Below, one piece after another: positions 5,788 through 26,316 of a DNA stretch of 64,000 bases (positions are counted from its first letter, which is position 1; the number at the start of each line of letters is the position of its first letter). This stretch comes from an uncultured SAR116 cluster alpha proteobacterium. Lineage in GTDB: Bacteria; Pseudomonadota; Alphaproteobacteria; Puniceispirillales; Marisalimonadaceae. Where the stretch lies: contig CACMOJ010000004.1 in the NCBI GenBank assembly GCA_902615325.1, forward strand, positions 1-64,000, written 5' to 3'. A program made the translations under genes and the position numbers. Under the pieces are notes generated by a model, which was not told the DNA's origin, ran no database searches, and saw only the letters and a list, made by a program, of their open reading frames with translations.

Positions 5788-5790
5788 ATT

Positions 5791-5807: not shown

Positions 5808-5817
5808 ACACAAAGTT

Positions 5818-6666: not shown

Positions 6667-6669
6667 ATA

Positions 6670-7425: not shown

Positions 7426-7451
7426 TTAAATTAAAAATTTATAAAAATAAT

Positions 7452-7748: not shown

Positions 7749-8176
7749 TTTATTTTTATTTCTTGCCATGCTCCGATTATTATATTTAGAGCATCATAAG
7801 CTTTTTTTAATTTTTTGTTATCATTGTCAGCAAAACTTTTTATGATTTGACACCTACAAAACTCGTAAAGTTGAAAAAGATTAATTGAGATGCTACCTCC
7901 TTTATCAAAATCTAAACTGCTTTGTAAGCTGTAAATTGTTGTTAAAGATCTTGTTACATATTTAGAAATAGACTTTTGAGTGTTTTTAAGATTTTGTCTT
8001 TGTTTCGAAATTAAAAAGGCATTTTTCTTATCAATCTCTAAAATTAAAAGATGCATAATACGTGAAAGATCATCAAGTAATAATTTTACAATCTCATATG
8101 GATTTTTTTGCATGTTACTGGTTTTATCAATTTGCTTATAAATATTAAGCATTTTTAAATTTTTTAATGTTGTCAT
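7745..8176 (-). CDS. fliS: Flagellin export chaperone FliS (1)
   Basis: A 143-residue protein with the FliS helical-bundle pattern. PYEIVKLLLDDLSRIMHLLI near residue 26 corresponds to the PxELI.LLYDG region. SSLDFDKGGSISINLFQLYEFC (read from about 88) corresponds to LD...GGEIA.NL..LYDY, and the end AWQEIK matches WxEI. FliS binds flagellin C-termini in the cytoplasm to prevent polymerisation before export. It lies beside flagellin 1; a second FliS is at 28118-28501. No sigma-54 or GTCGT element is visible upstream. Confidence 0.75.
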   Translation of the reverse strand: MTTLKNLKMLNIYKQIDKTSNMQKNPYEIVKLLLDDLSRIMHLLILEIDKKNAFLISKQRQNLKNTQKSISKYVTRSLTTIYSLQSSLDFDKGGSISINLFQLYEFCRCQIIKSFADNDNKKLKKAYDALNIIIGAWQEIKIK

Positions 8177-8212
8177 AATTTCAGTCCAAAACTTGAAATT
8201 TTTTTAAAATTA

Positions 8213-8578
8213 ATGTATTTTAGCAAGATGATTAATCCTATTCATTCTATAAGTTTGTCAGATTACAATACTCCGCATTCTAACAAATTAAATATTAATG
8301 ATAAAACTGCAAACAATATGCCAAATGGACTTCAAAGAGTTTCTGAGGTATCAGAAAATAAATATATAAATGGTAAGTTGCTAAATGATCCAAAAAAGCA
8401 AATTTTCACTGCAAGTTTAGCTCCATCAATTGGATTTTTGACTGAAAGTTTTGTTAAATCTAGAAGCTTATTTTCACCTCTATATAGAAATAATGAGGCT
8501 ATAGCTAAATATGAAGCTATAAGTATAAGTCCATTATCATTAACTACTGTGAAAAAAGATTTAGATAAAATAGCTTAA
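8213..8578 (+). CDS. Hypothetical protein upstream of flagellin 1
   Basis: A 121-residue Ser/Asn/Lys-rich protein without a signal peptide, membrane segment or recognisable domain. It reads in the same direction as flagellin 1, between divergent fliS and the flagellin promoter. The start is uncertain: ATG at 8213 or 8228 (MINPIHSIS), neither with a strong ribosome site. A role in flagellin export or modification is possible from position only. Confidence 0.45.
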   Translation: MYFSKMINPIHSISLSDYNTPHSNKLNINDKTANNMPNGLQRVSEVSENKYINGKLLNDPKKQIFTASLAPSIGFLTESFVKSRSLFSPLYRNNEAIAKYEAISISPLSLTTVKKDLDKIA

Positions 8579-8660
8579 ACCTAACAATTTTGACTAATTT
8601 ATATCTGGTTATTCCATTGTTTTCATTACATATTTAAGCCTCGAAGGATAAATTATTTAT

Positions 8661-8677
8661 TTGGCATATAGTTTGCA
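8661..8677 (+). promoter_or_regulatory. Sigma-54 promoter of flagellin 1
   Basis: TTGGCATATAGTTTGCA matches the -24/-12 consensus closely, including GGCA. The predicted start is at about 8688, followed by GGAGG at 8695-8699 and the ATG at 8705. Confidence 0.8.
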
Positions 8678-8704
8678 CAAATAATCCGACGAACGGAGGT
8701 ATAA

Positions 8705-10486
8705 ATGCCATCAATAAATTCTAATACTGGAGCAATGTATTCTGTAAATGCAACCCAGAAAATTGAAAGAGAGATGAGTACATCTATGAAAAGACTAGCT
8801 TCTGGTGAAAGAATCACTAATGCTGGTGATGATGCTGCTGGTGCTGCTATATCTGACAGGATGTTATCACAAGTAAAAGGCTTGGAAATGTCTATTAGAA
8901 ATGCAGGAGATGTTATTTCTATGGCGCAAGTTTCTGAAGGAGCATTAGGAGAAATTGGAGATATCTTACAAAGAGTAAGAGAACTTGCAATACAATCAGC
9001 CTCTGATACGTATAATGCTACTGAAAGAAATTATATACAAACTGAAACAAATCAACTTTTATCAGAATTTGATAGAGTTACTAAGGATACAGAATTTAAT
9101 GAAGTTAATGTTTTAGACGGATCATTTGCAAGTAAAACATTTCAAATTGGTGTAAGAAAAGGTGAAAATGCGAGTATTTCAGTTAGCTCAATGAGAATAG
9201 ATGCTATTGGCGCATATCAGCAAACTACTGACATGTCTACAACTGATACCGATATAGCAACTAGTGCGAAATTAGTAACAAGTGCTTCAGATTCTGGTCA
9301 TGTTGAAGCTGACACAGTAACCATTAATGGTCAATTTGGAAATAAAGCACTTAGTATTACAGCAGATATGAGTGCAAAACAAGTTGCTGACCTTGTTAAT
9401 CAAAATTTTGACAGCACAGGTGTAGATGCAGTAGCTTCTACTCAAGTAAAACTTGAAGCTGTAGCAAATTCTGTTTCAGGATCTGCTGGAACAGTAACTG
9501 TTGCATTTGATTTATATGGTAAAAATACTGATGTTGTAAATGTTTCGGCTGCTATAACAACTGGAACTACCAAAGCGACTTCAAATATAGAACCGCTTCG
9601 AGATGCAATAAACGCTTACACTGCTCAAACAGGCATAGAAGCCGTTTTGTCTTTAGATAAATCAAATTTAATTTTAACTCAATCTGAAGGTTATGACATA
9701 AAAATTGTAGATACTAATTTTGATTTAGAAACTGTAGATGATGTTGTTACAACCTCAGTTGATGTAGCATCAACTGGAACAACTTTGATGTTAGCTTCTA
9801 CAACTGGAGTTGAAGTAGGTGATTTTGTTGTTGTAACTTCTGATCATTCACCTGCACCAGCTGGCGCTTATATTACTTCAATATCTTCTGGTGCTCACGT
9901 TGTTCTATCAGAAGCAATCAGTGGTACTATAGATGCGAATGCGACTGTAAATATTGTTAATGCTGAAAGAGCATTAGCAGTCACAGGTTTAAGTGAAGAT
10001 TTATCTACTTCAGGCATGGGAGCAACTTTAATAGATAAAGATCAAACAACACACACTTTTGACTCTACACGCGTGACAGGACAAGTTACTTTTAATTCAA
10101 CAGCTCAATTTACTGTCCAAGCAGACACTGACAAAGGACTATTCACAACCGCACCTGGGTCTGCAACCTTAAAAAAACTTAGCACAATAAAACTTAATAC
10201 AAGAACAGCTGCCGTTGATGCTCTAGTAGTCCTAGATAAAGCTTTAGATAGAATAAATTTAGAAAGAGCTAAGCTAGGAGCTATAATGAGCCGTATGACA
10301 AAAGCAATTGATAATTTATCCAACGTGTCCATGAATACAACTGAATCAAGAGGAAGAATAGTTGATGCTGACTTTGCACTTGAATCAGCAAATCTAACGA
10401 AGTCTCAAATTTTACAACAGTCTGCAACTGCTATGATAGCTCAAGCAAGTAGATCAATGCAAACTGTACTAGAATTATTAAAATAA
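8705..10486 (+). CDS. fliC: Flagellin (1)
   Basis: A 593-residue filament subunit. The N-terminal D0/D1 region is conserved (LASGERITNAGDDAAGAAIS; VRELAIQSASDTY; residues 1-170). The C-terminal D1/D0 region matches (TKSQILQQSATAMIAQASRS; about 505-593). The middle holds a flagellin-IN-like domain (about 200-345) interrupted near 350-418 by a beta-rich segment with the motif TTGVEVGDFVVV. It is longer than minimal flagellins because of this exposed region, the likely glycosylation surface. GGAGG lies six bases from the ATG. The next gene begins ten bases after its stop, so flagellin and a glycosyltransferase/methyltransferase may be co-transcribed. Confidence 0.92.
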   Translation: MPSINSNTGAMYSVNATQKIEREMSTSMKRLASGERITNAGDDAAGAAISDRMLSQVKGLEMSIRNAGDVISMAQVSEGALGEIGDILQRVRELAIQSASDTYNATERNYIQTETNQLLSEFDRVTKDTEFNEVNVLDGSFASKTFQIGVRKGENASISVSSMRIDAIGAYQQTTDMSTTDTDIATSAKLVTSASDSGHVEADTVTINGQFGNKALSITADMSAKQVADLVNQNFDSTGVDAVASTQVKLEAVANSVSGSAGTVTVAFDLYGKNTDVVNVSAAITTGTTKATSNIEPLRDAINAYTAQTGIEAVLSLDKSNLILTQSEGYDIKIVDTNFDLETVDDVVTTSVDVASTGTTLMLASTTGVEVGDFVVVTSDHSPAPAGAYITSISSGAHVVLSEAISGTIDANATVNIVNAERALAVTGLSEDLSTSGMGATLIDKDQTTHTFDSTRVTGQVTFNSTAQFTVQADTDKGLFTTAPGSATLKKLSTIKLNTRTAAVDALVVLDKALDRINLERAKLGAIMSRMTKAIDNLSNVSMNTTESRGRIVDADFALESANLTKSQILQQSATAMIAQASRSMQTVLELLK

Positions 10487-10495
10487 AGGAAATTT

Positions 10496-13390
10496 ATGAA
10501 TTACATGAATGCAATTAATAATTCTCAAGATTATCTTGAGAGTATGAAGAAATCCTTTTTGAAATCAAAAGAATATTTAAAAAATAAAAATAATAATTAC
10601 AAAAGTGTTCATTGGAATAATTTTTTGCCAGAAAATTATGAAGTAATTTTTTCAAATAATGATTATTGGAATAATTTTTTAAGAAATGCTATTTCTATAG
10701 GTTGTAATGACGTATTAGCTTTTTATTTACAAGATAAAAATATTTCACCGCACAAATTTAAAAAGTCAAAATTCAAAAATAAAGATTTTAGCGAAATCAT
10801 ATTTCAATCAAAGCATTCCTCTACCGAGGAGAAAGAATTAATTAATTTGGCAACCGCTGTTATTAATTATGTTGGCACAGATTTCTTTTTTGCAAATCAA
10901 ATGTCAAATATTGGAAACCCAAGATTTTTAAAAATAAACGCTGAATGCAATAAAAAAATTGAAAATTTAAGAGCAAATAAACACGACATGTGTGATATTT
11001 ATCATTATAAATTGTTTAAAGAAAATATTTTAGATAAAATTAATACTGATAATTTAATTATCGCTGAGATTGGTGCTGGATACGGTGGTTTTGCATCAAA
11101 GGTCATAAGAAATAAGCAGTTAAAATATGTAATTTTTGATTTACCAGAAGTAAATGCACTTCAATATTATTATTTAAGTAAAAATTTTCCTGAAAAGATT
11201 ATTGTTGATTATGATACTTTTGTCAGAAATGGAAGAGATCTTAATCAGAAATTTGATATATTAATTCTTCCACCTTGGGAAATAGAAAGTTTCAAAAAAG
11301 ATTTTTTTAATATTTTTGTTAATATTAGATCTATGCAAGAAATGAATAAAAGTACAATAAAATTTTATTTTCAAAATATTCAAAATAATATTAGAAATGG
11401 CGGGTTATTTTTTAATTTAAACCGATATCAAAAACCTATAGGTAAAGAAATAATTAAATTTGAAGAATTTCCTTACGATTGTAAATGGTCAACTTCTTTT
11501 TATCAAAAATCTCAACTACAGGATTGTCATATTCTTATTACAAAGAGAGTTAAAAATAAAAAAACTTTTATATTAGAAAATGAAATCAAGCTATCAGAGA
11601 ATAATACTCATACAACTGAAAGCAAGCTTAAAGAAATTGATATTCAAAACAAAATTATAAATGATAATCTATTACAGTTAATGAAATTAGGTAGAAATGT
11701 TGACGTTAAATCTTTTGAAAAAAATTATCAAATAGAAGATATTAACGACCCTACTCTACTTTATATCTTTGGAACCAATAGATTACTATTAAACGAATAT
11801 TATGAAGCAAAATTGTATTTAAAAAAATCTGTAAAACTTAATAACAATTTTTGTGAAGCTTTTGCAAATTTAGCAGTTATTTTTGATAATGAAGAGGATT
11901 ATGATAATGCACTTTTTTATTACGATAGAGCACTTGAAATCAATCCTTCACATTCAACAACTATAATAAATCAATCTCATATTTATAACAAAAAGTTACA
12001 ATCTGAGAAAGTTATAGAAAACTTGTTAAAATTACCAAAAAGTTTGTATGACATTGAAGTCTGTAATTTATTTTCAAAAAACTATTTTAGATTAAATGAT
12101 TTTAAAAATGCACTTTATTTTTCAGAAAAAGCTCTAAAAAAAGATCCAGAAAATATTGTAGCTTTAAACAATCTTGGAAGAGCCTATTTGAATTATGAAG
12201 TAAACAATAAGACAAAAAAAATTGATTACTTAAATAAAGCTTTAAAATGTTTTAAAAAAGTTTTCATTATTGATCCCTCTTCAATTGAAGCATTATATAA
12301 TATCGGAACTGCTTATGAAAAACTTTCAAATGAAAAAAAGGCAGAAGAATATTATAGAAAAGTTCTTAATATTAATCCAGATTATAAGGATGCAAGTATC
12401 AATCTTGCTTTAATACTACTAAGAAAAGGAGAGTTCTCAGAAGGCTGGCAAAGATATGAGGATCGTCTTTTAATGGATAATCCTGAAAGAAAAAAAATTA
12501 TTGGGCCAAATACTTCCCTTCCCTTTTGGAGTTTAGATTGTAAAGATAGCAAACTATTTGTATGGCCTGAGCAAGGTATTGGTGATACTATTTTCTATTC
12601 CTCTCTTCTTAATGAACTCAATGAAAAATGCTCTTCTATAACATGCGTTATAGAACCTAGATTAAATAAACTTTACAAAAGATCTTTTCCTAATATTAAT
12701 TTTGGAAAACCCGGCGATGAGTATCAAGAAGATGACTTCACCCATCAACTGGCAATTGGAAGCATTCCAAAATTCTTTAGAAATAATTTAGAAGATTTTT
12801 CTAAGTCTCCTTACGCCTACCTTAAAGCTGACCTAAATCGTTCACTTAAAATTCAAGATGAAATAAAAAATAAAAATGACTTTACAGTTGGTATCTCTTG
12901 GACATCTCAAGGCAGCCAAAAAGATTTTAAATCTGTCGATATAAATCTTATAATAAATTGTTTAAAAAAACTTCCTGTGAAAATTGTTAACCTACAATAT
13001 GGTGAAGTTGATGAAGAAATATCAATGGTAAAAAAACAACATAACATTGATATTCTACAATGTCCTTCAGTTGATATTTATAATGATTTTGATGGATTAG
13101 CTAGTTTAATGGCAGCATGTGATGTTGTTTTAACAACTCCTAATGTTAATCAGACTATTGCAAGTGCACTTGGAGTACCAACATTTTTACTTTTGTCAGA
13201 TGATCCTAGTTTTAGATGGTTAAACAAAGGAATGGATTCGATATGGCATCCCAATACAAAATTATTTAGACAAGACAAAAATGGTGATTGGACGCAAGCT
13301 TTTAATCAAGTATCACAAATAATCTTTAATCTATACGTTCAATCTTTTCAAAACGATATTGAAACAATAAAACAAAATGTTGAAGATTAA
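10496..13390 (+). CDS. Fusion: sugar O-methyltransferase + TPR + GT9-like glycosyltransferase
   Basis: A 964-residue three-part protein. Residues about 1-350 resemble the putative sugar O-methyltransferase family, with SAM motif AEIGAGYGGFASKV near 190 and VIFDLPEVNALQYYYLSKNFP-type following sequence. Residues about 395-660 are TPR units. Residues about 670-960 are a GT9-like domain with PEQGIGDTIFYSSL near 690, GISWTSQGS near 798 and MAACDVVLTTPNVNQTIASA near 880. AAGGA precedes the ATG, ten bases after flagellin 1. The final 282 codons are almost identical in DNA to those of the next gene. I infer transfer and methylation of a flagellin sugar. Confidence 0.75.
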   Translation: MNYMNAINNSQDYLESMKKSFLKSKEYLKNKNNNYKSVHWNNFLPENYEVIFSNNDYWNNFLRNAISIGCNDVLAFYLQDKNISPHKFKKSKFKNKDFSEIIFQSKHSSTEEKELINLATAVINYVGTDFFFANQMSNIGNPRFLKINAECNKKIENLRANKHDMCDIYHYKLFKENILDKINTDNLIIAEIGAGYGGFASKVIRNKQLKYVIFDLPEVNALQYYYLSKNFPEKIIVDYDTFVRNGRDLNQKFDILILPPWEIESFKKDFFNIFVNIRSMQEMNKSTIKFYFQNIQNNIRNGGLFFNLNRYQKPIGKEIIKFEEFPYDCKWSTSFYQKSQLQDCHILITKRVKNKKTFILENEIKLSENNTHTTESKLKEIDIQNKIINDNLLQLMKLGRNVDVKSFEKNYQIEDINDPTLLYIFGTNRLLLNEYYEAKLYLKKSVKLNNNFCEAFANLAVIFDNEEDYDNALFYYDRALEINPSHSTTIINQSHIYNKKLQSEKVIENLLKLPKSLYDIEVCNLFSKNYFRLNDFKNALYFSEKALKKDPENIVALNNLGRAYLNYEVNNKTKKIDYLNKALKCFKKVFIIDPSSIEALYNIGTAYEKLSNEKKAEEYYRKVLNINPDYKDASINLALILLRKGEFSEGWQRYEDRLLMDNPERKKIIGPNTSLPFWSLDCKDSKLFVWPEQGIGDTIFYSSLLNELNEKCSSITCVIEPRLNKLYKRSFPNINFGKPGDEYQEDDFTHQLAIGSIPKFFRNNLEDFSKSPYAYLKADLNRSLKIQDEIKNKNDFTVGISWTSQGSQKDFKSVDINLIINCLKKLPVKIVNLQYGEVDEEISMVKKQHNIDILQCPSVDIYNDFDGLASLMAACDVVLTTPNVNQTIASALGVPTFLLLSDDPSFRWLNKGMDSIWHPNTKLFRQDKNGDWTQAFNQVSQIIFNLYVQSFQNDIETIKQNVED
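12533..13378 (+). repeat. 846-bp near-identical repeat, copy 1
   Basis: Matches 13981-14826 without indels at a constant offset of 1448 bases. It is almost base-perfect apart from a divergent patch near 12703-12735 and a few changes near 12645-12650. It encodes the glycosyltransferase domain of the 964-aa fusion. The abrupt left edge lies within the frame. Confidence 0.9.
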
Positions 13391-13395
13391 TTTAA

Positions 13396-14835
13396 GTGTA
13401 CCATCATTCAAAAACCCATAATATTAACAGTAAAGATTTTAAAAAATCAATTTATAATCTTTTAATTTCTTATAAATTTAAAGATATAAAAGATATTGAA
13501 TTAAGTATACATAGAAACAACTTAGAAGATCCTTTTTTACTTTATGTATTTGGAACCACTAGACTCGAATTAAACGAATTAGATGATGCTGAATTTTTAT
13601 TAAAAAAATCAATTGAGATGAGTAGTTTATTTTTTGAAGCTATTGTAAATCTAGCGGTCGTGTACGAAAAAAAAAATAAAATTCAAGACGCGATAAGTTT
13701 TTACAACAAAGGCCTAGAATTGAAACCTAATCATGATGCGACACTTTTTAATATAGGGAAAATTTACGATCGTATAAAAGAATTTGAAAAAGCTGTTATG
13801 TATTATAGAAAAACTTTAGATGTAAACCCTGCATTCTCTGACGCTAGTTATAATTTATCTCAACATTTATTAATAAAAGGAATTTTTAGAGAAGGTTGGG
13901 AAAGATATGAAGATAGATTTAATGTTATTTCAAAAATTAATAGGGTTAATAAACCTGACATATCCCTTCCTTTTTGGAATTTAGATTGTAAAGATAGCAA
14001 ACTATTTGTATGGCCTGAGCAAGGTATTGGTGATACTATTTTCTATTCCTCTCTTCTTAATGAACTCAATGAAAAATGCTCTTCTATAACATGTGCTTTA
14101 GAACCTAGATTAAATAAACTTTACAAAAGATCTTTTCCTAATATTAATTTTGGAGCTGGCAAGGAAACATTTGATGAAAAAGACTTCACCCATCAACTGG
14201 CAATTGGAAGCATTCCAAAATTCTTTAGAAATAATTTAGAAGATTTTTCTAAGTCTCCTTACGCCTACCTTAAAGCTGACCTAAATCGTTCACTTAAAAT
14301 TCAAGATGAAATAAAAAATAAAAATGACTTTACAGTTGGTATCTCTTGGACATCTCAAGGCAGCCAAAAAGATTTTAAATCTGTCGATATAAATCTTATA
14401 ATAAATTGTTTAAAAAAACTTCCTGTGAAAATTGTTAACCTACAATATGGTGAAGTTGATGAAGAAATATCAATGGTAAAAAAACAACATAACATTGATA
14501 TTCTACAATGTCCTTCAGTTGATATTTATAATGATTTTGATGGATTAGCTAGTTTAATGGCAGCATGTGATGTTGTTTTAACAACTCCTAATGTTAATCA
14601 GACTATTGCAAGTGCACTTGGAGTACCAACATTTTTACTTTTGTCAGATGATCCTAGTTTTAGATGGTTAAACAAAGGAATGGATTCGATATGGCATCCC
14701 AATACAAAATTATTTAGACAAGACAAAAATGGTGATTGGACGCAAGCTTTTAATCAAGTATCACAAATAATCTTTAATCTATACGTTCAATCTTTTCAAA
14801 ACGATATTGAAACAATAAAACAAAATATTGGATAA
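13396..14835 (+). CDS. TPR protein with GT9-like glycosyltransferase domain (3)
   Basis: A 479-residue protein with TPR units at about 20-160 and a GT9-like domain from about 195 (PEQGIGDTIFYSSL near 207). The C-terminal 280 residues are nearly identical to those of the preceding 964-aa fusion, while the TPR part is clearly divergent. The frame first opens at a GTG at 13396 right after an in-frame stop, with no ATG until much later, so GTG is used without an obvious ribosome site. Translation may be coupled to the upstream gene, whose stop is five bases away. Likely flagellin glycosylation, by context. Confidence 0.7.
   Translation: MYHHSKTHNINSKDFKKSIYNLLISYKFKDIKDIELSIHRNNLEDPFLLYVFGTTRLELNELDDAEFLLKKSIEMSSLFFEAIVNLAVVYEKKNKIQDAISFYNKGLELKPNHDATLFNIGKIYDRIKEFEKAVMYYRKTLDVNPAFSDASYNLSQHLLIKGIFREGWERYEDRFNVISKINRVNKPDISLPFWNLDCKDSKLFVWPEQGIGDTIFYSSLLNELNEKCSSITCALEPRLNKLYKRSFPNINFGAGKETFDEKDFTHQLAIGSIPKFFRNNLEDFSKSPYAYLKADLNRSLKIQDEIKNKNDFTVGISWTSQGSQKDFKSVDINLIINCLKKLPVKIVNLQYGEVDEEISMVKKQHNIDILQCPSVDIYNDFDGLASLMAACDVVLTTPNVNQTIASALGVPTFLLLSDDPSFRWLNKGMDSIWHPNTKLFRQDKNGDWTQAFNQVSQIIFNLYVQSFQNDIETIKQNIG
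13981..14826 (+). repeat. 846-bp near-identical repeat, copy 2
   Basis: Partner of 12533-13378. Identity drops sharply at both boundaries. This fits recent duplication or ongoing gene conversion of the glycosyltransferase domain, with the TPR domains kept different. Confidence 0.9.
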
Positions 14836-15035
14836 TATAATAGGCAATTACTTTATAAGATTTCTAATTCATTTCTTGTATTATCATAAGACTTTGTAAA
14901 TTATATATGAATAGCTTTTCCATTATACGATTTCATTACTTTAGGTATATGCTACCTTTCAATGGTTTAAATAATAATTGTCTGAATAATGTACATAACT
15001 AAACTTGCTTAACCGTCTTATAAATAAGTCCAATT

Positions 15036-17400: not shown

Positions 17401-19191
17401 TTATCCTTGAAGTAAGGCTAATACAGTCTGCTTTGATGCATTAGCTTGAGCAAGCATTGAAGTTGATGCTTGAGCTAAAATCTGAGCTTTTGTCAATTTA
17501 GATGACTCAGAGGCAAAATCAGCATCAGTAATGTGACTTTTTGAAGCTTCTGTATTAAGAACAACATTCGTTAAATTTGAAACAACATTGTCTAATCTAT
17601 TTGAAATTGCTCCTTGTTCTGCTCTTGACAAATCAATCATACTTAATGCACCATCAACAATTGAAATAGCTTTTTCTGAGTTTGCGACAGTAGACAAGTC
17701 AACTGTACCTACATTAAGTAAAGTTGAAGTATCAGCTGATGTTCCACCACCTGTAAAGTCATCAGTTATTGCTGTTCCAGAACTTGATGTTACTGCAAAT
17801 GATTTAACTGAGTCAAATTGAACTTGACCTTTGAAGAAACCTCCAGCTGTATCATTTGCAGCTATGTAACCCGCATTTATATTACCAGCAGATGACGCAG
17901 ATATTGCTATGCTTGTAACTGTAGCAAACTGCTTAGTTGTTGTAACTGTAGCAGTGGCACCACCAGTTAAAGTTTCAACCAATGCTGAACCACTTAAATC
18001 TGTACCAGTAATTGTAACAGAAGCACCAGAGTCATCCCCAGATGATGTAACAGTAACGAGAGCACCAATGTGTGTACTCGCGTCAACAACTGATAATGTG
18101 TTAGTTTTTGCAATTGTAGCTAAAACACCTGCGGCACTAGCGGCACGAGCACCCATAACTATACCTTGAGTAGTTGATCCAGACGATAATGCTTGTGTAG
18201 TAGTTTCATCTGCACCCAAAGATCTCATTGTCATTGAAACACCAGTACTTAACATTCCAGATATTACAATGTCTTCTCCAGTTGCATGAGTTAAGAGAAT
18301 TCTACTAGAGTCAGCATTTTTCAAATTAGCTGTGATGTTAGTAGTACCAGTTTTATCATTGATAGCATCTCTTAATGCTGTAAGATCTGAAATAGATGAT
18401 ATTGCTGTTGTGTTTATAGTTGCAGAATTAGTACCATTACCAATAACAAAACCAATGTTACCTGCTCCACTTAAACCAACAATTTCAGCTTTTGTTACAG
18501 CAGAAGCTTCAACACCGGTAGATTCAGTTTGTCCATTTACAGCGGATGCAAATGTTGCAGCACTTGCGCCAGCTGCTACAGTAACTTCACCTTGACCAAT
18601 ATGACCATCAATTGTGTAAGTTTGTGAATCTATTGTTGCCGTTGAGCCAGCTACGTGAAATGCTGTACCTTCTACTCTATTAGTACCTATAGATGTTGCT
18701 TTAACATTTCTTATAGCTAAATCAATATCTTCAGATCGTTTGTGACCAACTTGTAGCTGAATGTCGTCGAATGTACCATCAAGAAGTTTCATTCCGTTCC
18801 ATCTAGTTTGATCACCAATTCTATTAATCTCAGCTAAAATCTGATCTGCTTCTTTTTCAAGGTAAATTCTGTCGGTTGCAGAATTTGTGTCGTTTGAACT
18901 TTGAACAGCAAGTTGTCTTAATCTTTGAAGTAAATTAACAACTTCCTTTTGTGCACCTTCTGCAGTATCTATCATAGCTTGGCCGTCAGAAGCATTTCTT
19001 ATTGCCTGATTAAGACCTCTTACCTGGCTTTCTAATTTATTAGAAATAGAACTGCCTGCGGCATCGTCAGCAGCAGAATTAATTCGCAAACCTGTGGAAA
19101 GTCTCTCGATAGCACTTTCTAGGTTTGCGTTATTTTTAGACATTGCAGCTTGTGCTGTTAAAGCCCCAACGTTTGTATTAATAACAGTCAT
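17401..19191 (-). CDS. fliC: Flagellin (2)
   Basis: A 596-residue flagellin distinct from flagellin 1. The N-terminal D0/D1 is TVINTNVGALTAQAA with RLSTGLRINSAADDAAGSSI (residues 2-170). The C-terminal D1/D0 ends ASTSMLAQANASKQTVLALL. The central region holds a flagellin-IN-like part (about 240-320) and, at about 370-445, one copy of the ~80-residue module found eight times in FlgK. It is preceded by AGGAGAT and a GTCGTTTT element rather than a sigma-54 site, so it is probably a late, FliA-dependent gene. FliD lies directly upstream in the same orientation. Confidence 0.92.
   Translation of the reverse strand: MTVINTNVGALTAQAAMSKNNANLESAIERLSTGLRINSAADDAAGSSISNKLESQVRGLNQAIRNASDGQAMIDTAEGAQKEVVNLLQRLRQLAVQSSNDTNSATDRIYLEKEADQILAEINRIGDQTRWNGMKLLDGTFDDIQLQVGHKRSEDIDLAIRNVKATSIGTNRVEGTAFHVAGSTATIDSQTYTIDGHIGQGEVTVAAGASAATFASAVNGQTESTGVEASAVTKAEIVGLSGAGNIGFVIGNGTNSATINTTAISSISDLTALRDAINDKTGTTNITANLKNADSSRILLTHATGEDIVISGMLSTGVSMTMRSLGADETTTQALSSGSTTQGIVMGARAASAAGVLATIAKTNTLSVVDASTHIGALVTVTSSGDDSGASVTITGTDLSGSALVETLTGGATATVTTTKQFATVTSIAISASSAGNINAGYIAANDTAGGFFKGQVQFDSVKSFAVTSSSGTAITDDFTGGGTSADTSTLLNVGTVDLSTVANSEKAISIVDGALSMIDLSRAEQGAISNRLDNVVSNLTNVVLNTEASKSHITDADFASESSKLTKAQILAQASTSMLAQANASKQTVLALLQG
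17865..18080 (-). repeat. Filament module copy in flagellin 2
   Basis: Encodes a unit of the form VTVTSSGDDSGASVTITGTD...GNINAGY. It matches the FlgK module consensus (VTI-S-G-SS-FTV-GTD-GN-E-TG-FK-ITSI-GNV-IGT). Confidence 0.6.
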
Positions 19192-19271: not shown

Positions 19272-21224
19272 TTAATCTTTATTAAATGATTCCATTAAAT
19301 TGGTCATGAATTCACCAGTATTTTTTAGGCTTGATATAGCCCCTTCCATCGCTGTAAATTGTTTTTTATATCTCTTTTCTAGGTTTTCACTAACAGTGTC
19401 AAGGTCAGTAAGTTCAAGATTAAAATCAGAAATATCTTGATTAAATTCGATCTCTTTGTTTGCTAAATCACCAGATACTTCTAAAAGTTTGTTGGTGTAT
19501 TTACTTAATTTTTCAACAAGACTTTCACCATAGAAAATAAATGCACTATCAACTGTCTGTGAGGGAGTTATTTTTATACCAGTTGCATCACCGGTCGTAC
19601 TAGCATAAAATGTATTGCCATTGTCATCTGTACCAGATGTCATGCCTAATCCATCAAGTGTAGCCGTACTATTTCCACTATCAAAAATAAAAGAATATTG
19701 TCCAGGCTTTGGTTTTATTGTTGTGTCGGAAGTGACTGACAAAAAAGCTGAGTTTGAAGAAAAAGATGAAATAAAAATTGCATTAAAGGCGTTTGGGTCT
19801 GCTAAAAAATTCTTTTTAAACTTTGCTTCATCTACTGAAAGACTTCCATCTCTGGCCGTTTGAAGGCCAAGACTTGAAGCATAATAATCATTTGAGCCAA
19901 AACCATTCAATTTTGAATTTACTAAATTATTTAATTGATTTTTTATAACTCCTATCATCACATCATCTGATAAAGGTCCCCTATTTTCCTCTAAATCAGA
20001 AGATTTTGTTAATTCCTCGAATAAAGATCTTGTTTGATTAAATGCACTTACAAATGTTTTCATATTTTCTAAAGAGGTATCTTCATCCAAAGAAGAAGAA
20101 ACTCTAAATGAAGAACTAGTTGTAGCACTAATTGACAGACTATATCCTTCAAATATGTCAGTTACAGTATTGGATGATCTATTTATACTAACTCCATCAA
20201 CAGTTAATTCTGCGTCAGAAGCAGATGTAGTTTGATGAGAATTGTTATCTGAGGTTGTGTCTAAAACTGAAAGTCCTGTGTCACCAGAATTTTCAGATAC
20301 TGTCAATCTTAAGGCACTATTTCTACCAGTATCAGATCTTAAAACAAGAGAATATGTTCCATCTCCTTTGTTAAGAACACTGGCAGTAACACCAGATATT
20401 TGGTTTAAATTATTTGCGATAGTTTCTATTGAAGAACCTTGGGTGATTGTAACTGTTTTGGATGTTTTAGCAGTATTTTTTCCAAATGTGTTGGCAGAAT
20501 GCCCAACAGTAACAGTTCCAGTTCCGACAGTTGACCCTGGGGTAATACTCGTTATAGATTTAAACACATTAATGCTTGAAACAGTTTGGCCATCTCCACC
20601 ACCTGTTACAACTTCAGTAACATTATTACCAGCCATATCTTTTCCAATTATGGTAAATGAAGTCGAGGACTGATTGCCACCAGCTGATGTAGATATAGTT
20701 ACTTGCCCGCCTAATGAATTATGACTAATTGGAGTTCCCAGTGAAGTACTTGCACTAACTGTTGTTCCTGAAGCAAATAATGAATCTGTATCTGTCGCAG
20801 TTCCATCGCTTGCAATCCAATTTCCAAAATCTATTGTTATCACTCCAGAACCAGTAGTAGATGTAGGTAAAGCAAAACCTGAAAATTCTAATGTTTGGGG
20901 AGTTGCTAAAGAAGAAATATTTATATCTGAGCTAAAAACATTTGCTTTGCTAGAATCAACAACGTTTAAAGATGTATTTACATTTCCACTTGCAGTTTTA
21001 AACTTAGATACATTTGTCAATGAAATAAGACTAGCATTAAGATTACTCAATTCACTTTTGATCTGTCCCAGAGCAGAAATATCTAAATTTTTTCCATCAA
21101 TTTTTTTGTTTATTAAATCTACTTTTGGTTTGGTTTCAGCTTCTACAAGACTTTCTACAATCTGTGTAATATTTAAACCACTTCCTTTGGTATTAATCGC
21201 GCTTACATAATCAACTGCTGCCAT
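19272..21224 (-). CDS. fliD: Flagellar filament cap protein FliD
   Basis: A 650-residue hook-associated protein 2. The N-terminus has the FliD signature (GLNITQIVESLVEAETKP, residues 17-34). The C-terminus has the coiled-coil end (FTAMEGAISSLKNTGEFMTNL, about 622-642). Between them lie a FliD_C-like region (SKLNGFGSNDYYASSLGLQ) and one module shared with FlgK at about 160-245. FliD caps the growing filament and guides flagellin assembly. AGGACG precedes the ATG. Two promoters overlap upstream, one sigma-54 and one of the GTCGTWT type. Confidence 0.92.
   Translation of the reverse strand: MAAVDYVSAINTKGSGLNITQIVESLVEAETKPKVDLINKKIDGKNLDISALGQIKSELSNLNASLISLTNVSKFKTASGNVNTSLNVVDSSKANVFSSDINISSLATPQTLEFSGFALPTSTTGSGVITIDFGNWIASDGTATDTDSLFASGTTVSASTSLGTPISHNSLGGQVTISTSAGGNQSSTSFTIIGKDMAGNNVTEVVTGGGDGQTVSSINVFKSITSITPGSTVGTGTVTVGHSANTFGKNTAKTSKTVTITQGSSIETIANNLNQISGVTASVLNKGDGTYSLVLRSDTGRNSALRLTVSENSGDTGLSVLDTTSDNNSHQTTSASDAELTVDGVSINRSSNTVTDIFEGYSLSISATTSSSFRVSSSLDEDTSLENMKTFVSAFNQTRSLFEELTKSSDLEENRGPLSDDVMIGVIKNQLNNLVNSKLNGFGSNDYYASSLGLQTARDGSLSVDEAKFKKNFLADPNAFNAIFISSFSSNSAFLSVTSDTTIKPKPGQYSFIFDSGNSTATLDGLGMTSGTDDNGNTFYASTTGDATGIKITPSQTVDSAFIFYGESLVEKLSKYTNKLLEVSGDLANKEIEFNQDISDFNLELTDLDTVSENLEKRYKKQFTAMEGAISSLKNTGEFMTNLMESFNKD
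20485..20745 (-). repeat. Filament module copy in FliD
   Basis: Encodes SLGTPISHNSLGGQVTISTS...SSTSFTIIGKDMAGN...VFKSITSITPGSTVGTGTVTVG. It is closest to FlgK modules at 31865-32115 and 32170-32410, sharing even the SLG-I-SH-GG lead-in. Confidence 0.75.
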
Positions 21225-21242: not shown

Positions 21243-21269
21243 ATAACGACTCTTTTAATGCAAATTTTA
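21243..21269 (-). promoter_or_regulatory. Putative sigma-28-like promoter of fliD
   Basis: Minus strand reads TAAA-N15-GTCGTTAT, with exactly the spacing of canonical FliA promoters. It overlaps the sigma-54 site at 21259-21275. The predicted start is near 21236, upstream of AGGACG. Confidence 0.55.
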
Positions 21270-21275
21270 TGCCTC
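21259..21275 (-). promoter_or_regulatory. Sigma-54 promoter of fliD
   Basis: Minus strand reads GAGGCATAAAATTTGCA. GG and GC have the correct ten-base separation; the first two bases deviate from TT. The predicted start is near 21248. Confidence 0.55.
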
Positions 21276-21288
21276 AATATAAGGTATT

Positions 21289-22047
21289 TTAAATAATATT
21301 TGAAACTGCCTCTGCCATTTTAAAGTCAAATTCATCATCTATATCAAAACACTCAATTTTAGAAATTTTAAAACCTAAAGAATTATTGGGATCATAGGTT
21401 TTACCGTTATTATTGAAAATTTTATTTTTAATTTCATTTTCAAAATATCTTACTTTTGTCAGTCTTAAAGCTGGACTTCCTTCCAAAACTTCTGGCCAAT
21501 CTTGGCTTCTTTCAATATCATTAATTGTACTATTATTTATAGAAATAACCCCATTCTTGATCTTATCTCTATCATTTAAATTAACTACTCTGAATGGATG
21601 AGTTTTAGCTTCAGAAATCGACACACAAGAATTTATATTTTCATCGGAAAACTCTAATTTTTTAATCATTTTTTCAATTGTTGATGCTTTTATAAATGGA
21701 TTAGTTGGTGGTTTTAATCCAACAATATAGGGTAGTTTTTTATATTTTTTAAAATAAACACTTAAAGCATGAATGATCACTGATCTTGAAGAGGAGTTAT
21801 CCTGACACAAATAATCAGGTCTTTCAAAAGGTACGTTTAGATTGTACTGTTCACAAATATCTAATGTCTCTATATCATTTGTTGAAACCAAAATGTCAAT
21901 ATTTTTGATTTTTAAACATTGTTCAATTGAATAACTTATTAAAGGCTTTTTATTTAAAAGCTTTATATTTTTCCCTTTTACTCTTTTAGACCCACTTCTC
22001 GCAGGTATTATTATAAGAGTATTATTATTACAAAACTCAAACGACAT
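21289..22047 (-). CDS. CMP-sugar (acylneuraminate-type) cytidylyltransferase
   Basis: A 252-residue enzyme of the NeuA/PseF/LegF/KdsB superfamily, which couples CTP to 2-keto-3-deoxy sugar acids. The nucleotide-binding loop IIIPARSGSKRVKGKNIKLL is intact at residues 12-31, followed by KPLISYSIEQCL, LVSTNDIETL and GLKPPTNPF. It is the last gene of a five-gene operon and overlaps the preceding glycosyltransferase by 11 bases. The exact sugar acid cannot be read from the motifs. The operon lacks the usual Neu/Pse/Leg genes, so I do not use those symbols. Confidence 0.85.
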   Translation of the reverse strand: MSFEFCNNNTLIIIPARSGSKRVKGKNIKLLNKKPLISYSIEQCLKIKNIDILVSTNDIETLDICEQYNLNVPFERPDYLCQDNSSSRSVIIHALSVYFKKYKKLPYIVGLKPPTNPFIKASTIEKMIKKLEFSDENINSCVSISEAKTHPFRVVNLNDRDKIKNGVISINNSTINDIERSQDWPEVLEGSPALRLTKVRYFENEIKNKIFNNNGKTYDPNNSLGFKISKIECFDIDDEFDFKMAEAVSNII

Positions 22048-23437
22048 TCTTAAGAATTCTTTGGTTTGTGTTCAATTTAATTATTTTAAACTTCTGAATA
22101 TTGTTCTTGTAATAATCAATAAAATCCTTTTGACAATTAATTTGTATGCTGGCGAATTGGTCACTAAGTCTTTTCATTTCAAAATCTTCGTGAATTGAAA
22201 TTTCTTTTGTAAGCATATCTCCGTCAGCAACCATTCCGAAACCCTTCAATGCACTATAATAAAGATTTTTTTCTATACCTTTAGGAGCAAAAGGCAATCC
22301 GATAGGCTTATACTTTTTCTTACTTTTCTCAAAAATAGTATTTCTTATTTTTTGTCCATACATCACAACTCTTGATTTACTGTTTAAATAAAATTCAACC
22401 AACTCATCAATTTGCTTGCTATTTCTATAAGGGTAATTTTCTTGTAAAACAAAAAAAGACTTACATTTAAAACTTTTTAAAGATTTAACGACATGGGATA
22501 TACTTGGCCATTGACCAAGAATTAAAGATGATAAATGTTTTGGCCTTATTATTATGTCATCAACATCAATATCTTTAAAATTACATTTTTTTTGATCACT
22601 TCCTAGCAAAAGAATTATCTTTTTTATGTATTTTGATTGTTTAATATCATTGATTGATTTTTTAAGTAAATACATGTCCTTATCGAAGAGAAAGGGATCT
22701 AAACAAGGTAAAATTGCAATCTCAGGTATTTTTTTCTTATTTTTAATTTCATAAGATGGTGTGATAAGGTTGTTATCTTCAAGAATTCTTACTACGCCAG
22801 ATAATCTTTTTTTGTTATTATCTTGGTTTATTCCATGCCAATGATACACACTTGCGTTTGAATTATAAAATATCCTGTAGCCTTGTTTAATTCTTTCAGT
22901 AGACCAAATTCGATCTTCGATATTGGTCGCAGTTTCATCAAACTTATATTTTTTTAAAAGTTCTAATGGGATACAACTATTTGCATTATGGAAAAAACTA
23001 TCTTTAATTTGAAGTTTACTATCTAAACCAAAAGTATTCCATAAATCTCTTTTATTTGAATCAGTTGTAAATCTAAAAGGCTCTTGTCTTCCATAAACAC
23101 CAGCAAGATTATTATATTTTTTAAATGGTTTTATAAGATTTTCTAACCAATACGGATTTTTAGGTATGCAGTGTCCAGATAAAAAAACAATGAAATCCCC
23201 TTTTGCTTTCGAAACACCAAAATTAAGGGATTTACCTGGCATATAATCCCCTTTATATTGATATAGATTCACTGGATAATTTTTTAAAATATCAAGAGTT
23301 TTATCAGTACTAGCATCGTCAATTACAACAATTTCTTTATCAGAATAATTTTGATTTATAACAGCTTCTAAACAATAGGGTATCCACTGTTCTTCATTTT
23401 TAGTTCTAATGATTATGGATGCTTTAAATTTCGACAT
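22037..23437 (-). CDS. GT2 glycosyltransferase fused to a cytidylyltransferase-like domain
   Basis: A 466-residue two-domain protein. Residues about 3-215 are GT2/GT-A, with ASIIIRTKNEEQWIPYCLEA, EIVVIDDASTDKTLDIL, a nucleotide-site variant FLSGHCIPKN in place of the classic DxD, and RIWSTERIKQGYRIFY. Residues about 235-440 look like a second CMP-sugar synthetase fold: AILPCLDPFLFDKDMYLLKK, then LQENYPYRNSKQIDELVEFY, which parallels LQPTSPLRT...IDEAIE. The PARSGSKR loop is lost, so this half is probably inactive or only binds. Its start overlaps the upstream gene's stop by one base. Likely transfers the operon's CMP-sugar or an attached glycan. Confidence 0.7.
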   Translation of the reverse strand: MSKFKASIIIRTKNEEQWIPYCLEAVINQNYSDKEIVVIDDASTDKTLDILKNYPVNLYQYKGDYMPGKSLNFGVSKAKGDFIVFLSGHCIPKNPYWLENLIKPFKKYNNLAGVYGRQEPFRFTTDSNKRDLWNTFGLDSKLQIKDSFFHNANSCIPLELLKKYKFDETATNIEDRIWSTERIKQGYRIFYNSNASVYHWHGINQDNNKKRLSGVVRILEDNNLITPSYEIKNKKKIPEIAILPCLDPFLFDKDMYLLKKSINDIKQSKYIKKIILLLGSDQKKCNFKDIDVDDIIIRPKHLSSLILGQWPSISHVVKSLKSFKCKSFFVLQENYPYRNSKQIDELVEFYLNSKSRVVMYGQKIRNTIFEKSKKKYKPIGLPFAPKGIEKNLYYSALKGFGMVADGDMLTKEISIHEDFEMKRLSDQFASIQINCQKDFIDYYKNNIQKFKIIKLNTNQRILKNVV

Positions 23438-24312
23438 TATGAGTTCATAATTTCAAAAATTTCATTCAATCTCTGACTTGGATTGACTTTTTGAAATCCA
23501 ATAGCTGCTTGAAGTAAATTAATTTCCAACCCATTTTGACTTGGTATTCCTAAATAATCAGCTAAATTTAACAATAAAGTTTTTTCAGGCTGATAAATTA
23601 CATCTAATATATATCTTACATCTTTAAATGATCTTATTGTAGACAAACATTGTTCAAAATAATCATTTTTATTTTCTAAAGAAAAAAAATAAGGATGTAT
23701 TTCGAAAACTTTTTTATTAATTTTTCCAATTTCTATACCATTAAAATACCCTGCAGAAGAACAATTAATAAAGATAGTTTTAAGAGACTTATCTACAACA
23801 TCATTTGTTTTTATTAATTTTCCATTTTGAGAAATCAGGCAATCATTATTTCTATCCAAAATTAATAATTTTAATTCAGAATACTTTTTTTGTATTTCAG
23901 AAATCACAGCCTTCGCCATGCCACCTGTTCCAAACAAAATTATTTGTTCAATCGATTTGATATCGGTATTTTTCTCTAAAATATTTAAGGTCGCGATACC
24001 ATCTGTATTATACCCATAAAGTTTATTGTCTTTTCTTACTAAACAATTTACAGCTTGAGGGCCTAATAAAATATCTTTTTTATTTTCTGTATAATGAATT
24101 ATTTTTTCTTTATAAGGTACAGCTACAGCACCACCAAGAAAATTATAATCTTTAAATATTTTTGGAATTTGTATATCAAAATCATTCAATGCTATGTCTT
24201 TTGGATACATTTTTTGACTTATATTAAAATGACTATATGTTTTGTTCCATAAAACAGGAGAACGTGCTCCCTTAGAGGGGTTTTCACCTAATATTAATGT
24301 ATAATTCTCCAT
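23437..24312 (-). CDS. Shikimate/quinate dehydrogenase-like oxidoreductase
   Basis: A 291-residue AroE-superfamily protein. Conserved are the catalytic Lys in VAVPYKEK (K68), Asn in QAVNC (N89), Asp in GYNTD (D104), the dinucleotide loop FGTGGMAKA and Gln in GLEINLLQAAIGFQ (Q268). The carboxylate-binding loop, normally HSLSP or HSKSP, reads GARSP at residues 15-19, losing the first Ser. It is embedded between DAHP-synthase-like and glycosyltransferase genes with almost no spacing. I therefore expect a keto-reduction in sugar-acid synthesis rather than the aromatic pathway, but a true AroE role is not excluded. Confidence 0.7.
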   Translation of the reverse strand: MENYTLILGENPSKGARSPVLWNKTYSHFNISQKMYPKDIALNDFDIQIPKIFKDYNFLGGAVAVPYKEKIIHYTENKKDILLGPQAVNCLVRKDNKLYGYNTDGIATLNILEKNTDIKSIEQIILFGTGGMAKAVISEIQKKYSELKLLILDRNNDCLISQNGKLIKTNDVVDKSLKTIFINCSSAGYFNGIEIGKINKKVFEIHPYFFSLENKNDYFEQCLSTIRSFKDVRYILDVIYQPEKTLLLNLADYLGIPSQNGLEINLLQAAIGFQKVNPSQRLNEIFEIMNS

Positions 24313-24313
24313 A

Positions 24314-25216
24314 TTATGATTTTAAAATATTATGTATTTTATTCATTTTATTCATTACTTCTGAAAAATCCTCAAAACCAATTGGTTGCAGAGGATCAGT
24401 AGCAGCGTTCTTTGGATCTGGATGTACTTCTATCATAACACCATCAACACCAGCTCCTACAGAGGCATAACACATTGATGGAACCCAATCTGCCCAAAAG
24501 GTAGCGTGGGAAGGGTCTGAAATAATTGGTAAATGAGTAAAATCTCTTGCTGCGGGTATAACCTGTAAATCCAATAAAAATCTTGAGGTTGACCTGTGTG
24601 TGTGAGTTACACTTACACCTCTTTCGCATAAAATAACATTTGGATTTCCATTATAAAGAATATATTCTGCTGCTCCAAGCCAATCTCTTAATGAAGCTCC
24701 ATAATGTCTTTTTAACATTACTGGTTTTTTTTGTTTCCCTAAAGCTTCCAAAAGAGGATAATTTTGCATATTTCTTGTTCCCACTTGAAGAATGTCAGAT
24801 ACAGAAGATATCTCTTCAATTTTTTCAATATGCATGATTTCTGTTATGATATTAATGCCGGTTAATTCTTTTGCCTCTTTTAAATATTCAATACCTTTTT
24901 CTCTTAATTCAAAATAACTACTGCTTCTATATGGAAATGTAAGTGGTTTGTATGCACCAGCTCTTAGAAAGTGTGCACCTCTTTTTTTAACTTGCTTAGC
25001 AGTTTCAATAATCATTTCTTTGTTTTCAACTGTGTTTGGTCCTGCAAAAATAATTAATTCATCTCCACCTATTTGGTGATTACCTACTTCTATAATTGTT
25101 TTATGTTTAGAATGTTTTTTTGCTGCCAAGGGAAATTTAGATTGTAAATCCTCATTTGTTATATCTTTACCAGGTATTTTATTATCAACATCAAAGTTGT
25201 TTTTTAAGTCATCCAT
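24314..25216 (-). CDS. DAHP-synthase (type I beta)-like PEP-condensing enzyme
   Basis: A 300-residue aldolase-fold protein. Type I DAHP synthases join PEP to erythrose 4-phosphate; KDO8P synthases are relatives. Visible: FAGPNTVENKEM (from residue 57), LRAGAYKPLTFPYRSS, LQVGTRNMQNYPLL, VMLKRHYGAS, ILCERGVSVTHTHRS, ISDPSHATF and EVHPDPKNAATDPLQP. The usual metal-ligand Cys of AGPCSVE is Asn61, the residue found in metal-independent KDO8P synthases. KRG is changed to KRH. The His, Glu and Asp ligand positions remain. GGGGAG precedes the ATG. I infer a divergent ulosonate synthase working with the adjacent CMP-sugar synthetase. Confidence 0.75.
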   Translation of the reverse strand: MDDLKNNFDVDNKIPGKDITNEDLQSKFPLAAKKHSKHKTIIEVGNHQIGGDELIIFAGPNTVENKEMIIETAKQVKKRGAHFLRAGAYKPLTFPYRSSSYFELREKGIEYLKEAKELTGINIITEIMHIEKIEEISSVSDILQVGTRNMQNYPLLEALGKQKKPVMLKRHYGASLRDWLGAAEYILYNGNPNVILCERGVSVTHTHRSTSRFLLDLQVIPAARDFTHLPIISDPSHATFWADWVPSMCYASVGAGVDGVMIEVHPDPKNAATDPLQPIGFEDFSEVMNKMNKIHNILKS

Positions 25217-25218
25217 AA

Positions 25219-26277
25219 TTATCTCCCCAACTTATTAAATTTATTTTTTGAATTTAAATTAACCCACTTTTTTTTATCTGAACTCTCATAAATAGCATTC
25301 ATCAATAAAACACTTTTCTTTGCTTCTATATAATCAATAGGTGGTTCAATTATACCTTCTTTTAGTCTTTTAAGTGTTTCATCGAGAATTCTTGGATGAG
25401 ATACTCCATAACCATGTTTTACATTTTCAGAAAACTGTTTTTTGATTTTAATGCAGTCATCAATCTTTGATGACTTTAATTCGATTATTTTATTCATTGA
25501 CAATCCACCAACCACGATGAAACCTTCAGAACCAAAAATTGAAATTTCTGCGTCATAATCCTTTGGTCTGACTGATGTTGTTGCCTCAAATGTTCCAACT
25601 GATCCATTATCAAATTCTAATAAAGAAATATTTGTATCTTCTGCTTCAAGTTTATTAATTTGATTAGATGAATGAGAAACGACCTTTTTAACTCCTCCAC
25701 TTATCCATTGAAGTGCATCTAAATGATGAATAGCTTGTTGAGATACAACACCGCCATCCATTTTCCATGTTCCGTGCCATCCATCTTCATAATAATCTTG
25801 TTCTCTACACCACCTTACTCTTGCAGAGATCATATTAATGTTTCCCAAAAGTTTCTTTTCTACAATTTCTTTAGTTTTCATCAATGCCGGATTAAATCTA
25901 TTTTGGTAAATAGTTGCATACATCAAATTATTTTTCTTTGCTAACTTACCTAAAGTTGTTATTTGGTTAGGAATTAAACAAGCTGGTTTTTCTGTGATCA
26001 CATGTTTTCCATTATTAAGAGCAAGTTTTGCGTCTCTATAATGATTTCCACTTTCAGTTAGAATGATAACGGCGTCAATTTCGTTATCGTTTATAAAACT
26101 CTTACTATCTTGGTAATAATTACAATCAAATTTTTTCACAAATTTGTTAGTTTTGGACTCTATTAAATCAGAAACACTCGATAATTTAATTCCTTCAATT
26201 CCTCTTGAAAAACAATCATAATAAGTTGAGGAAATTCTACCACATCCTAAAATTCCGATATTTAAAGTATTCTTCAT
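25219..26277 (-). CDS. Gfo/Idh/MocA family NAD(P)-dependent sugar dehydrogenase
   Basis: A 352-residue oxidoreductase. It has a Rossmann loop NIGILGCGRISSTYY (from residue 6), the EKPACL signature with the catalytic-site Lys (EKP near residue 96) and a substrate-site segment SQQAIHHLDALQWISGG (about 185-201). Family members oxidise or reduce sugar hydroxyls, often on nucleotide sugars. The ATG at 26275-26277 is chosen because GGAG lies six bases upstream and the sigma-54 promoter predicts transcription from about 26289; the upstream ATG at 26289 would be leaderless. It heads the putative CMP-ulosonate operon. Confidence 0.85.
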   Translation of the reverse strand: MKNTLNIGILGCGRISSTYYDCFSRGIEGIKLSSVSDLIESKTNKFVKKFDCNYYQDSKSFINDNEIDAVIILTESGNHYRDAKLALNNGKHVITEKPACLIPNQITTLGKLAKKNNLMYATIYQNRFNPALMKTKEIVEKKLLGNINMISARVRWCREQDYYEDGWHGTWKMDGGVVSQQAIHHLDALQWISGGVKKVVSHSSNQINKLEAEDTNISLLEFDNGSVGTFEATTSVRPKDYDAEISIFGSEGFIVVGGLSMNKIIELKSSKIDDCIKIKKQFSENVKHGYGVSHPRILDETLKRLKEGIIEPPIDYIEAKKSVLLMNAIYESSDKKKWVNLNSKNKFNKLGR

Positions 26278-26299
26278 ATAAATCTCCAAAACTTAATAT

Positions 26300-26316
26300 T
26301 GCAAAATATATGCCAA
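26300..26316 (-). promoter_or_regulatory. Sigma-54 promoter of the putative ulosonate operon
   Basis: Minus strand reads TTGGCATATATTTTGCA, an excellent -24/-12 match almost identical to the flagellin 1 promoter. It places the whole five-gene operon in the flagellar regulon. Confidence 0.8.

Follow-up and report, generated by a model that had tools for sequence, protein, structure and literature searches.

The window, the whole 64,000-nucleotide stretch analyzed here (contig C4 in our numbering, GenBank CACMOJ010000004.1), comes from an uncultured SAR116 alphaproteobacterium whose 1.78-Mb genome assembly comprises 63 contigs and is ~82% complete. Five genes, all on the minus strand, occupy positions 26277 to 21289; of the four junctions between them, two are gaps (2 and 1 bp) and two are overlaps (1 and 11 bp). 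An earlier inspection of the letters, the sequence-only reading, had described this block as five nearly unspaced genes that may build a cytidine monophosphate (CMP)-activated ulosonic acid for flagellin, and both the tight spacing and the assignment of the genes, through profile matches for all five, were confirmed. The first (25219..26277, with an ATG start at 26277; the listed start is a TTG at 26289) encodes a dehydrogenase of the Gfo/Idh/MocA family (PF01408/PF22725), the nearest NCBIfam model of which, inositol 2-dehydrogenase, gave 126 bits against a cut-off of 355; relatives were found at 70% (L012), 40% (L025), and 35% (L020) identity. It is followed by a phosphoenolpyruvate (PEP)-condensing synthase derived from the type Ibeta 3-deoxy-D-arabino-heptulosonate 7-phosphate synthases (DAHPS) (24314..25216), a shikimate dehydrogenase (SDH)-family NAD(P)-dependent reductase which, judged by profiles, motifs, and a predicted model, has an altered substrate pocket (AroE-like; 23437..24312), a family 2 glycosyltransferase (GT2) domain (~aa 1-220) joined in one polypeptide to a degenerate cytidylyltransferase-like domain (~aa 225-466) (22037..23437), and a CMP-sugar synthetase of the NeuA/PseF/KdsB superfamily (21289..22047). 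No dehydratase, aminotransferase, acetyltransferase, or hydrolase is among the five, in agreement with the earlier remark that aminotransferase and hydrolase genes are missing. Directly downstream on the same strand lie fliD, encoding the filament cap (19272..21224; PF07195/PF02465), and then flagellin 2 (17401..19191), a homologue of FliC1 and a likely acceptor. The GC content of the block (0.26 to 0.32, against 0.29 for the window) gives no compositional sign of horizontal gain.

The block carries a flagellar-type promoter. When sigma-54 (-24/-12) elements were scored in the form TGGC-N8-TTGC, the window yielded four with the full score, where 0.025 are expected. One of these (TGGCATATATTTTGCA, 26300..26315, minus strand) lies ~22 bp before the ATG of the Gfo/Idh gene and differs from the element of flagellin 1 (8662-8677, plus strand) at two spacer positions, which bears out the near identity claimed from the letters. 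It is conserved in L011, from the single-cell genome of a close SAR116 relative (AroE-like protein 95% identical to that of the window), and in L012, which retains a full-consensus form (TGGCACATTTTTTGCA) even though its Gfo/Idh protein is the 70% identical one. A second element with a slightly weaker score (AGGCATAAAATTTGCA, 21259..21274, minus strand) precedes fliD and is likewise found in congeners without the block.

By sequence family, the synthase is a type Ibeta DAHPS. It matches DAHP_synth_1 with 182 bits and scores above the cut-offs of both NF006421 (335.4 bits; cut-off, 335) and TIGR01361 (295 bits; cut-off, 268), and in comparison with known structures it gave 213 bits to type Ibeta DAHPS and 74 bits to KdsA. 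In a tree of 17 family members, 7 canonical type Ibeta DAHPS, and 2 KdsA, the family is monophyletic with 100/100 support and sits on a long stem, while the KdsA clade excludes it. In each of the 22 aligned members, AGPN stands in place of the AGPC, with its metal-binding Cys, of the 7 reference DAHPS, and KPL(T/S)FPYR (KPLTFPYR in the window) in place of the KPRT(-PY) that all 7 have. The same 22 share HTHR, DPSHATFW, and, in place of DG-Q, DPLQ. The synthase lacks the KANRS motif of 3-deoxy-D-manno-octulosonate 8-phosphate (KDO8P) synthase. The KPR(S/T) motif binds erythrose 4-phosphate (E4P), and its Arg acts in that binding. Since this Arg is lost in every member, the acceptor aldehyde probably differs from E4P, and the heptulosonate-type product proposed in the sequence-only reading loses its footing. 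In metal-independent KDO8P synthases, metal independence stems from a Cys-to-Asn exchange, and the CDGP loop is altered further (PMC3052366). AGPN and D-P-L-Q fall at the two places reported to be altered in those enzymes, which supports a dedicated synthase.

At an E-value limit of 1e-74, the synthase family has members in 6 of the 385 alphaproteobacteria sampled, in half of the genomes (18/36) from the order of G415 (including G877), and in 1 of 48 from the class of G145. They are 55 to 82% identical to the window synthase, compared with at most 45% for plasmid-borne canonical DAHPS. A virus- or plasmid-borne origin was considered as well and rejected, the best plasmid and phage matches being canonical DAHPS (37 to 45% identity) and the viral contigs yielding one relative at 42%.

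The AroE-like protein shows a similar combination of family membership and divergence. It matches Shikimate_dh_N with 30 bits and the aroE model TIGR00507 with 110 bits, against a cut-off of 200. The catalytic Lys and Asp (K68 and D104) are invariant in 16 AroE-like members, and Asn and Gln are also kept. For the Staphylococcus epidermidis enzyme, Ser13, Asn58, and Thr60 are listed as shikimate-site residues (PMC6270726). In the AroE-like family, nearly all members have Ala at the first two positions, and Thr60 is replaced in most and kept in a few; the window protein has Ala at all three positions (S. epidermidis numbering). A predicted model (predicted local distance difference test [pLDDT], 85.6) matched SDH structures with a best Foldseek E value of 3.4e-17, and 5-ketofructose reductase (7cok/7col) was among the fold matches. 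On a plain reading, this is a predicted active reductase whose substrate would be a different polyol or an ulosonate. In the order to which the window belongs, the AroE-like partner occurs in only 2 of 136 genomes.

The GT2 domain assigned from the letters is present (97 bits), but the gene does not encode a plain GT2 enzyme. In the window, L012, L062, and L063, it forms a single polypeptide with the first of two NeuA-like proteins. RxGSKxxxKN is absent from this first NeuA-like group (those four and the stand-alone relatives that are complete at that end), and the group is related to the second NeuA group (hhalign, 99.7%). An hhalign comparison using the C-terminal domain of the window protein alone (two sequences) was not significant, while BLAST matched this domain to the fused domains of L062 and L063 (E values of 2e-7 and 5e-9, single comparisons); it is through these matches, combined with the hhalign match of the group, that the window domain is tied to the NeuA-like proteins. 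Structure prediction from four sequences gave a poor model of the fusion (pLDDT, 61.8), for which the fold search returned only GT-A/GT2 enzymes. Given that the first NeuA-like group lacks RxGSKxxxKN, the degenerate domain is probably a non-catalytic partner. The separate CMP-sugar synthetase matches CTP_transf_3 (73 bits) and PseF TIGR03584 (107 bits; cut-off, 206), and its CTP motifs, RxGSKxxxKN and DID, are intact.

The block recurs as a unit in other genomes, but it is not inherently flagellar and lies mostly within glycan clusters. About 10 genomes of the order of G415 have the order DAHPS, AroE, small open reading frame (ORF), GT2 (~227 aa), NeuA-like, second NeuA-like, usually away from flagellin. 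G812 and G625 have the order NeuA-GT2fusion-Gfo-DAHPS-AroE, together with asparagine-synthase-like, ATP-binding cassette (ABC) transporter, methyltransferase, and carbamoyltransferase-like genes. In G145, which belongs to another class, a DAHPS-AroE pair is accompanied by dioxygenase-like and methyltransferase-like genes, and a Gfo homologue lies ~29 kb away. The small ORF that, in the order of G415, separates the AroE-like gene from the GT2 gene (L053 8087-8599 and its equivalents) is conserved, encodes ~170 aa, and has no NCBIfam match. The blocks of G415 and G871 (L020 13029-18649 and L053 1-5974) adjoin genes for a TPR (tetratricopeptide repeat) transferase-like protein and a large secreted protein, a possible alternative acceptor.

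In the window, in L011 and G056 (probably one genome), and in L012, the block is flanked by a ClC-channel gene on one side and fliD on the other. In the congeners G060, G053, and G051, the ClC-channel gene is next to fliD with its sigma-54 site, in places with TPR genes on one side, and the block is absent. G053 (L112 3360-10534) has a formyltransferase-like gene, a DegT aminotransferase gene, and genes for TPR proteins between flaF/flbT-like genes and the ClC-channel gene, so that the region looks like a place of variable flagellin-sugar genes. L012 (with L064, on contig C83 of G877) is AT rich and carries SAR116-like flagellar genes along with the block, in a metagenome-assembled genome placed in the order of G415; mis-binning or transfer may account for this.

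Genome-wide family (profile) searches, on which all our statements of genome-wide absence are based, found no protein above the NeuB (PF03102) cut-off in the window genome, the sole match being the DAHPS-like protein with a score below it (20.4 bits; cut-off, 22.1). This agrees with the absence of a NeuB/PseI gene noted from the letters. Within the genus of the window, NeuB exceeds the cut-off in 8 of the 11 genomes that lack the block and in 0 of the 2 that carry it, in a set of genomes that are 54 to 84% complete. This inverse occurrence of block and NeuB is suggestive. In G058 (L091 1836-11939), a NeuB/PseI gene directly adjoins a flbD-like regulator gene and fliE/F/G/H/I-like genes.

Candidate transferases are encoded at the other flagellin locus. 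Flagellin 1, a likely acceptor (8705..10486, plus strand; PF00669/PF00700), is preceded by the sigma-54 element described above and followed on the same strand by two genes. The product of the first (10496..13390) combines a NanM-family sugar O-methyltransferase (TIGR04371, 92.8 bits; cut-off, 44) with TPRs and a putative glycosyltransferase region, matches the TPR-glycosyltransferase of L020 at 26%, and is a candidate modifier or transferase. The second (13396..14835) encodes a TPR protein with a putative glycosyltransferase region, a candidate FlmG-like flagellin transferase. In these TPR proteins, Pfam recognizes the TPRs and gives no match for the C-terminal part; a similarity of 26 to 29% to another TPR-glycosyltransferase-like protein was found. 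FlmG of Caulobacter is a cytoplasmic transferase composed of TPRs and a GT-B domain (PMC7591256). Furthermore, some flagellin Maf transferases accept CMP-Kdo (PMC11339370), which shows that flagellin can receive ulosonic acids devoid of amino groups. The wider region around flagellin 1 (2424-16904) encodes TPR proteins, the NanM-type O-methyltransferase-TPR fusion, a TPR-methyltransferase fusion, an FkbM methyltransferase, and a 2-oxoglutarate-oxygenase-like protein. Elsewhere in the window, FlgK (30357-37019; 2220 aa) contains at least eight stretches resembling, with up to 49% identity, the ~100-aa module that interrupts FliD (aa 145-250); by this resemblance, the two filament-junction proteins share an expanded repeat.

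We consider it somewhat probable that the operon is a dedicated PEP-dependent pathway to an amino-free, CMP-activated 3-deoxy-2-ulosonic acid, that it is expressed together with the late flagellar genes, and that its product decorates flagellin. The observations behind this view are the gene content, the conserved order, the separate clade, the motif changes, the promoter, the insertion site, and, in a small sample, the inverse occurrence with NeuB; the enzymatic steps, their substrates, the sugar, and flagellin as its acceptor are what we infer from them. A precursor aldose would possibly be oxidized by the Gfo/Idh enzyme, and the DAHPS-derived synthase would condense PEP with an aldose other than E4P to yield the 3-deoxy-2-ulosonic acid. 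The AroE-family enzyme may reduce a keto group, and together with the Gfo/Idh enzyme it would thereby oxidize and reduce a single position of either the precursor or the product, with net epimerization or keto reduction as the outcome. The NeuA-like enzyme would then activate the 2-ulosonic acid with CTP, and transfer might be carried out by the GT2 fusion protein or by the FlmG-like TPR transferases beside flagellin 1. The outline of the sequence-only reading, a CMP-activated ulosonic acid for flagellin, thus holds in view of the separate clade, the CMP-synthetases, the promoter, and the fliD/flagellin context, while its heptulosonate detail fails.

Several points weigh against this pathway to a flagellin sugar. 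The block contains no kinase or phosphatase gene that could serve precursor supply, and GT2 enzymes are not typical users of CMP-sugars. Completeness is 82% and 75% for the two SAR116 genomes with the block, making the absence of NeuB uncertain. Among the stretches examined, L048, L055, L056, L059, and L061 have the synthase without AroE or NeuA neighbors, and in most other genomes the block lies among general glycan genes, so that a generic surface sugar is a possible product. Because of the partner-less synthases and the arrangement in G145, we regard the block as a surface-glycan module put under flagellar control by this SAR116 lineage and not as a purely flagellar system. In a rival explanation, the CMP-activated ulosonic acid would be destined for a cell-surface polysaccharide (lipopolysaccharide, capsule, or exopolysaccharide), and the flagellar site would only lend its regulation. 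The company kept by the blocks of G812 and G625, the usual distance from flagellin in the order of G415, and a GT2 domain that suits chain assembly all fit such a destination. Yet the flagellar-type sigma-54 promoter is kept in a diverged relative, fliD and flagellin follow the block immediately, and TPR transferase-like and sugar methyltransferase genes are present in the flagellin 1 cluster; we think a polysaccharide sugar unlikely, though it deserves serious attention.

Two further explanations do without an ulosonic acid for the cell surface. The block might form a shikimate- or aminoshikimate-type side pathway to a carbocyclic acid, in which case the cytidylyltransferase would have another substrate, as the trio of DAHPS-like, SDH-like, and Gfo/Idh proteins resembles the RifH/RifI/RifL set for 3-amino-5-hydroxybenzoic acid (AHBA). 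We give this only a slim chance: a 3-dehydroquinate-synthase- or dehydratase-like gene was seen in no block examined, a NeuA gene belongs to the block in most genomes, and RifH is a type II DAHPS whereas the block synthase is derived from type Ibeta. The carbocycle-related acid suggested in the sequence-only reading is left unsupported by the same want of a 3-dehydroquinate-synthase-like gene in the block and its relatives. Alternatively, the DAHPS-like and AroE-like proteins might be ordinary aromatic paralogues, flux or feedback variants that by chance lie beside glycan genes. Their top profile matches are indeed DAHPS and AroE, and the DAHPS score barely attains one subfamily cut-off. The AroE score, in contrast, is far below the equivalog cut-off, the metal-site Cys and the KPR Arg are lost in 22/22 members of a monophyletic, long-stem clade, the partnership with NeuA and GT2 is constant, and the operon has a sigma-54 promoter. 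Nor are the two genes the only copies in the genome, a circumstance that would have spoken for aromatic enzymes: a type II DAHPS is encoded at G000:C20 (684 bits), a KdsA-like protein with the motif KANRT on C1, and two other AroE homologues on C11 and C12. On the motifs, the separate clade, and these other copies, ordinary aromatic duplicates were rejected, their chance being very slim, and the DAHPS-like and AroE-like genes are, as far as such sequence comparisons tell, separate from the aromatic-pathway copies.

If the ulosonic acid pathway is real, the synthase would be a third PEP-condensing type that feeds CMP-activated ulosonic acids, alongside NeuB and KdsA, in a route assembled from two recruited shikimate-pathway enzymes. 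Annotation as "DAHP synthase" and "shikimate dehydrogenase" would then hide a class of acidic surface sugars, which the AGPN/KPL[TS]FPYR signature would make detectable. In its broadest form, the proposal is an undescribed class of amino-free CMP-3-deoxy-ulosonic acids, made by a metal-independent DAHPS-derived synthase family and a repurposed shikimate dehydrogenase, that replaces nonulosonic acids on the flagellin of some marine bacteria; this we hold to be quite possible, if short of probable. A search of the literature available to us for a DAHPS-type CMP-sugar cluster and for SAR116 flagellin glycosylation found no description. The apparent NeuB swap within one SAR116 genus makes replacement of the flagellin sugar testable.

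Compared with known systems, the block shares with the NeuB/PseI/LegI flagellin pathways, such as Caulobacter Flm with FlmG (PMC7591256), a PEP-condensing synthase, a CMP-sugar synthetase, a flagellar setting, and TPR-type transferase candidates near an alphaproteobacterial flagellin. Unlike those pathways, it has no NeuB-family synthase, dehydratase, aminotransferase, acetyltransferase, or hydrolase and instead has the DAHPS-derived synthase, the SDH-like enzyme, and the Gfo/Idh enzyme. With the Kdo pathway (KdsA-KdsB) and the metal-independent KDO8P synthases (PMC3052366), it has in common the predicted use of PEP and an aldose, the Cys-to-Asn change at the metal site, and CMP activation, but its synthase groups with type Ibeta DAHPS and lacks KANRS, and the genome has a separate KdsA-like protein. 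The likeness to type Ibeta DAHPS (TIGR01361, PRK08673) covers sequence family, fold, and the PEP-side motifs (GARNMQN-like, KR, ERG, DPSH, and EVHP), whereas the block synthase has Asn for the metal Cys, Leu for the KPR Arg plus the FPYR insertion, an extra HTHR, DP for DG, and no link to aromatic genes. Likewise, the AroE-like protein retains the fold, the NAD(P) site, and the catalytic Lys and Asp of the shikimate dehydrogenase family, including 5-ketofructose reductase, but has Ala-x-Ser for Ser-x-Ser and has lost the carboxylate-side Asn and usually Thr. The AHBA/aminoshikimate set (RifH, RifI, and RifL) similarly recruits DAHPS-, SDH-, and Gfo/Idh-type enzymes; where that set has an aminotransferase and a dehydroquinate-synthase-like gene, the block has CMP-sugar genes instead.

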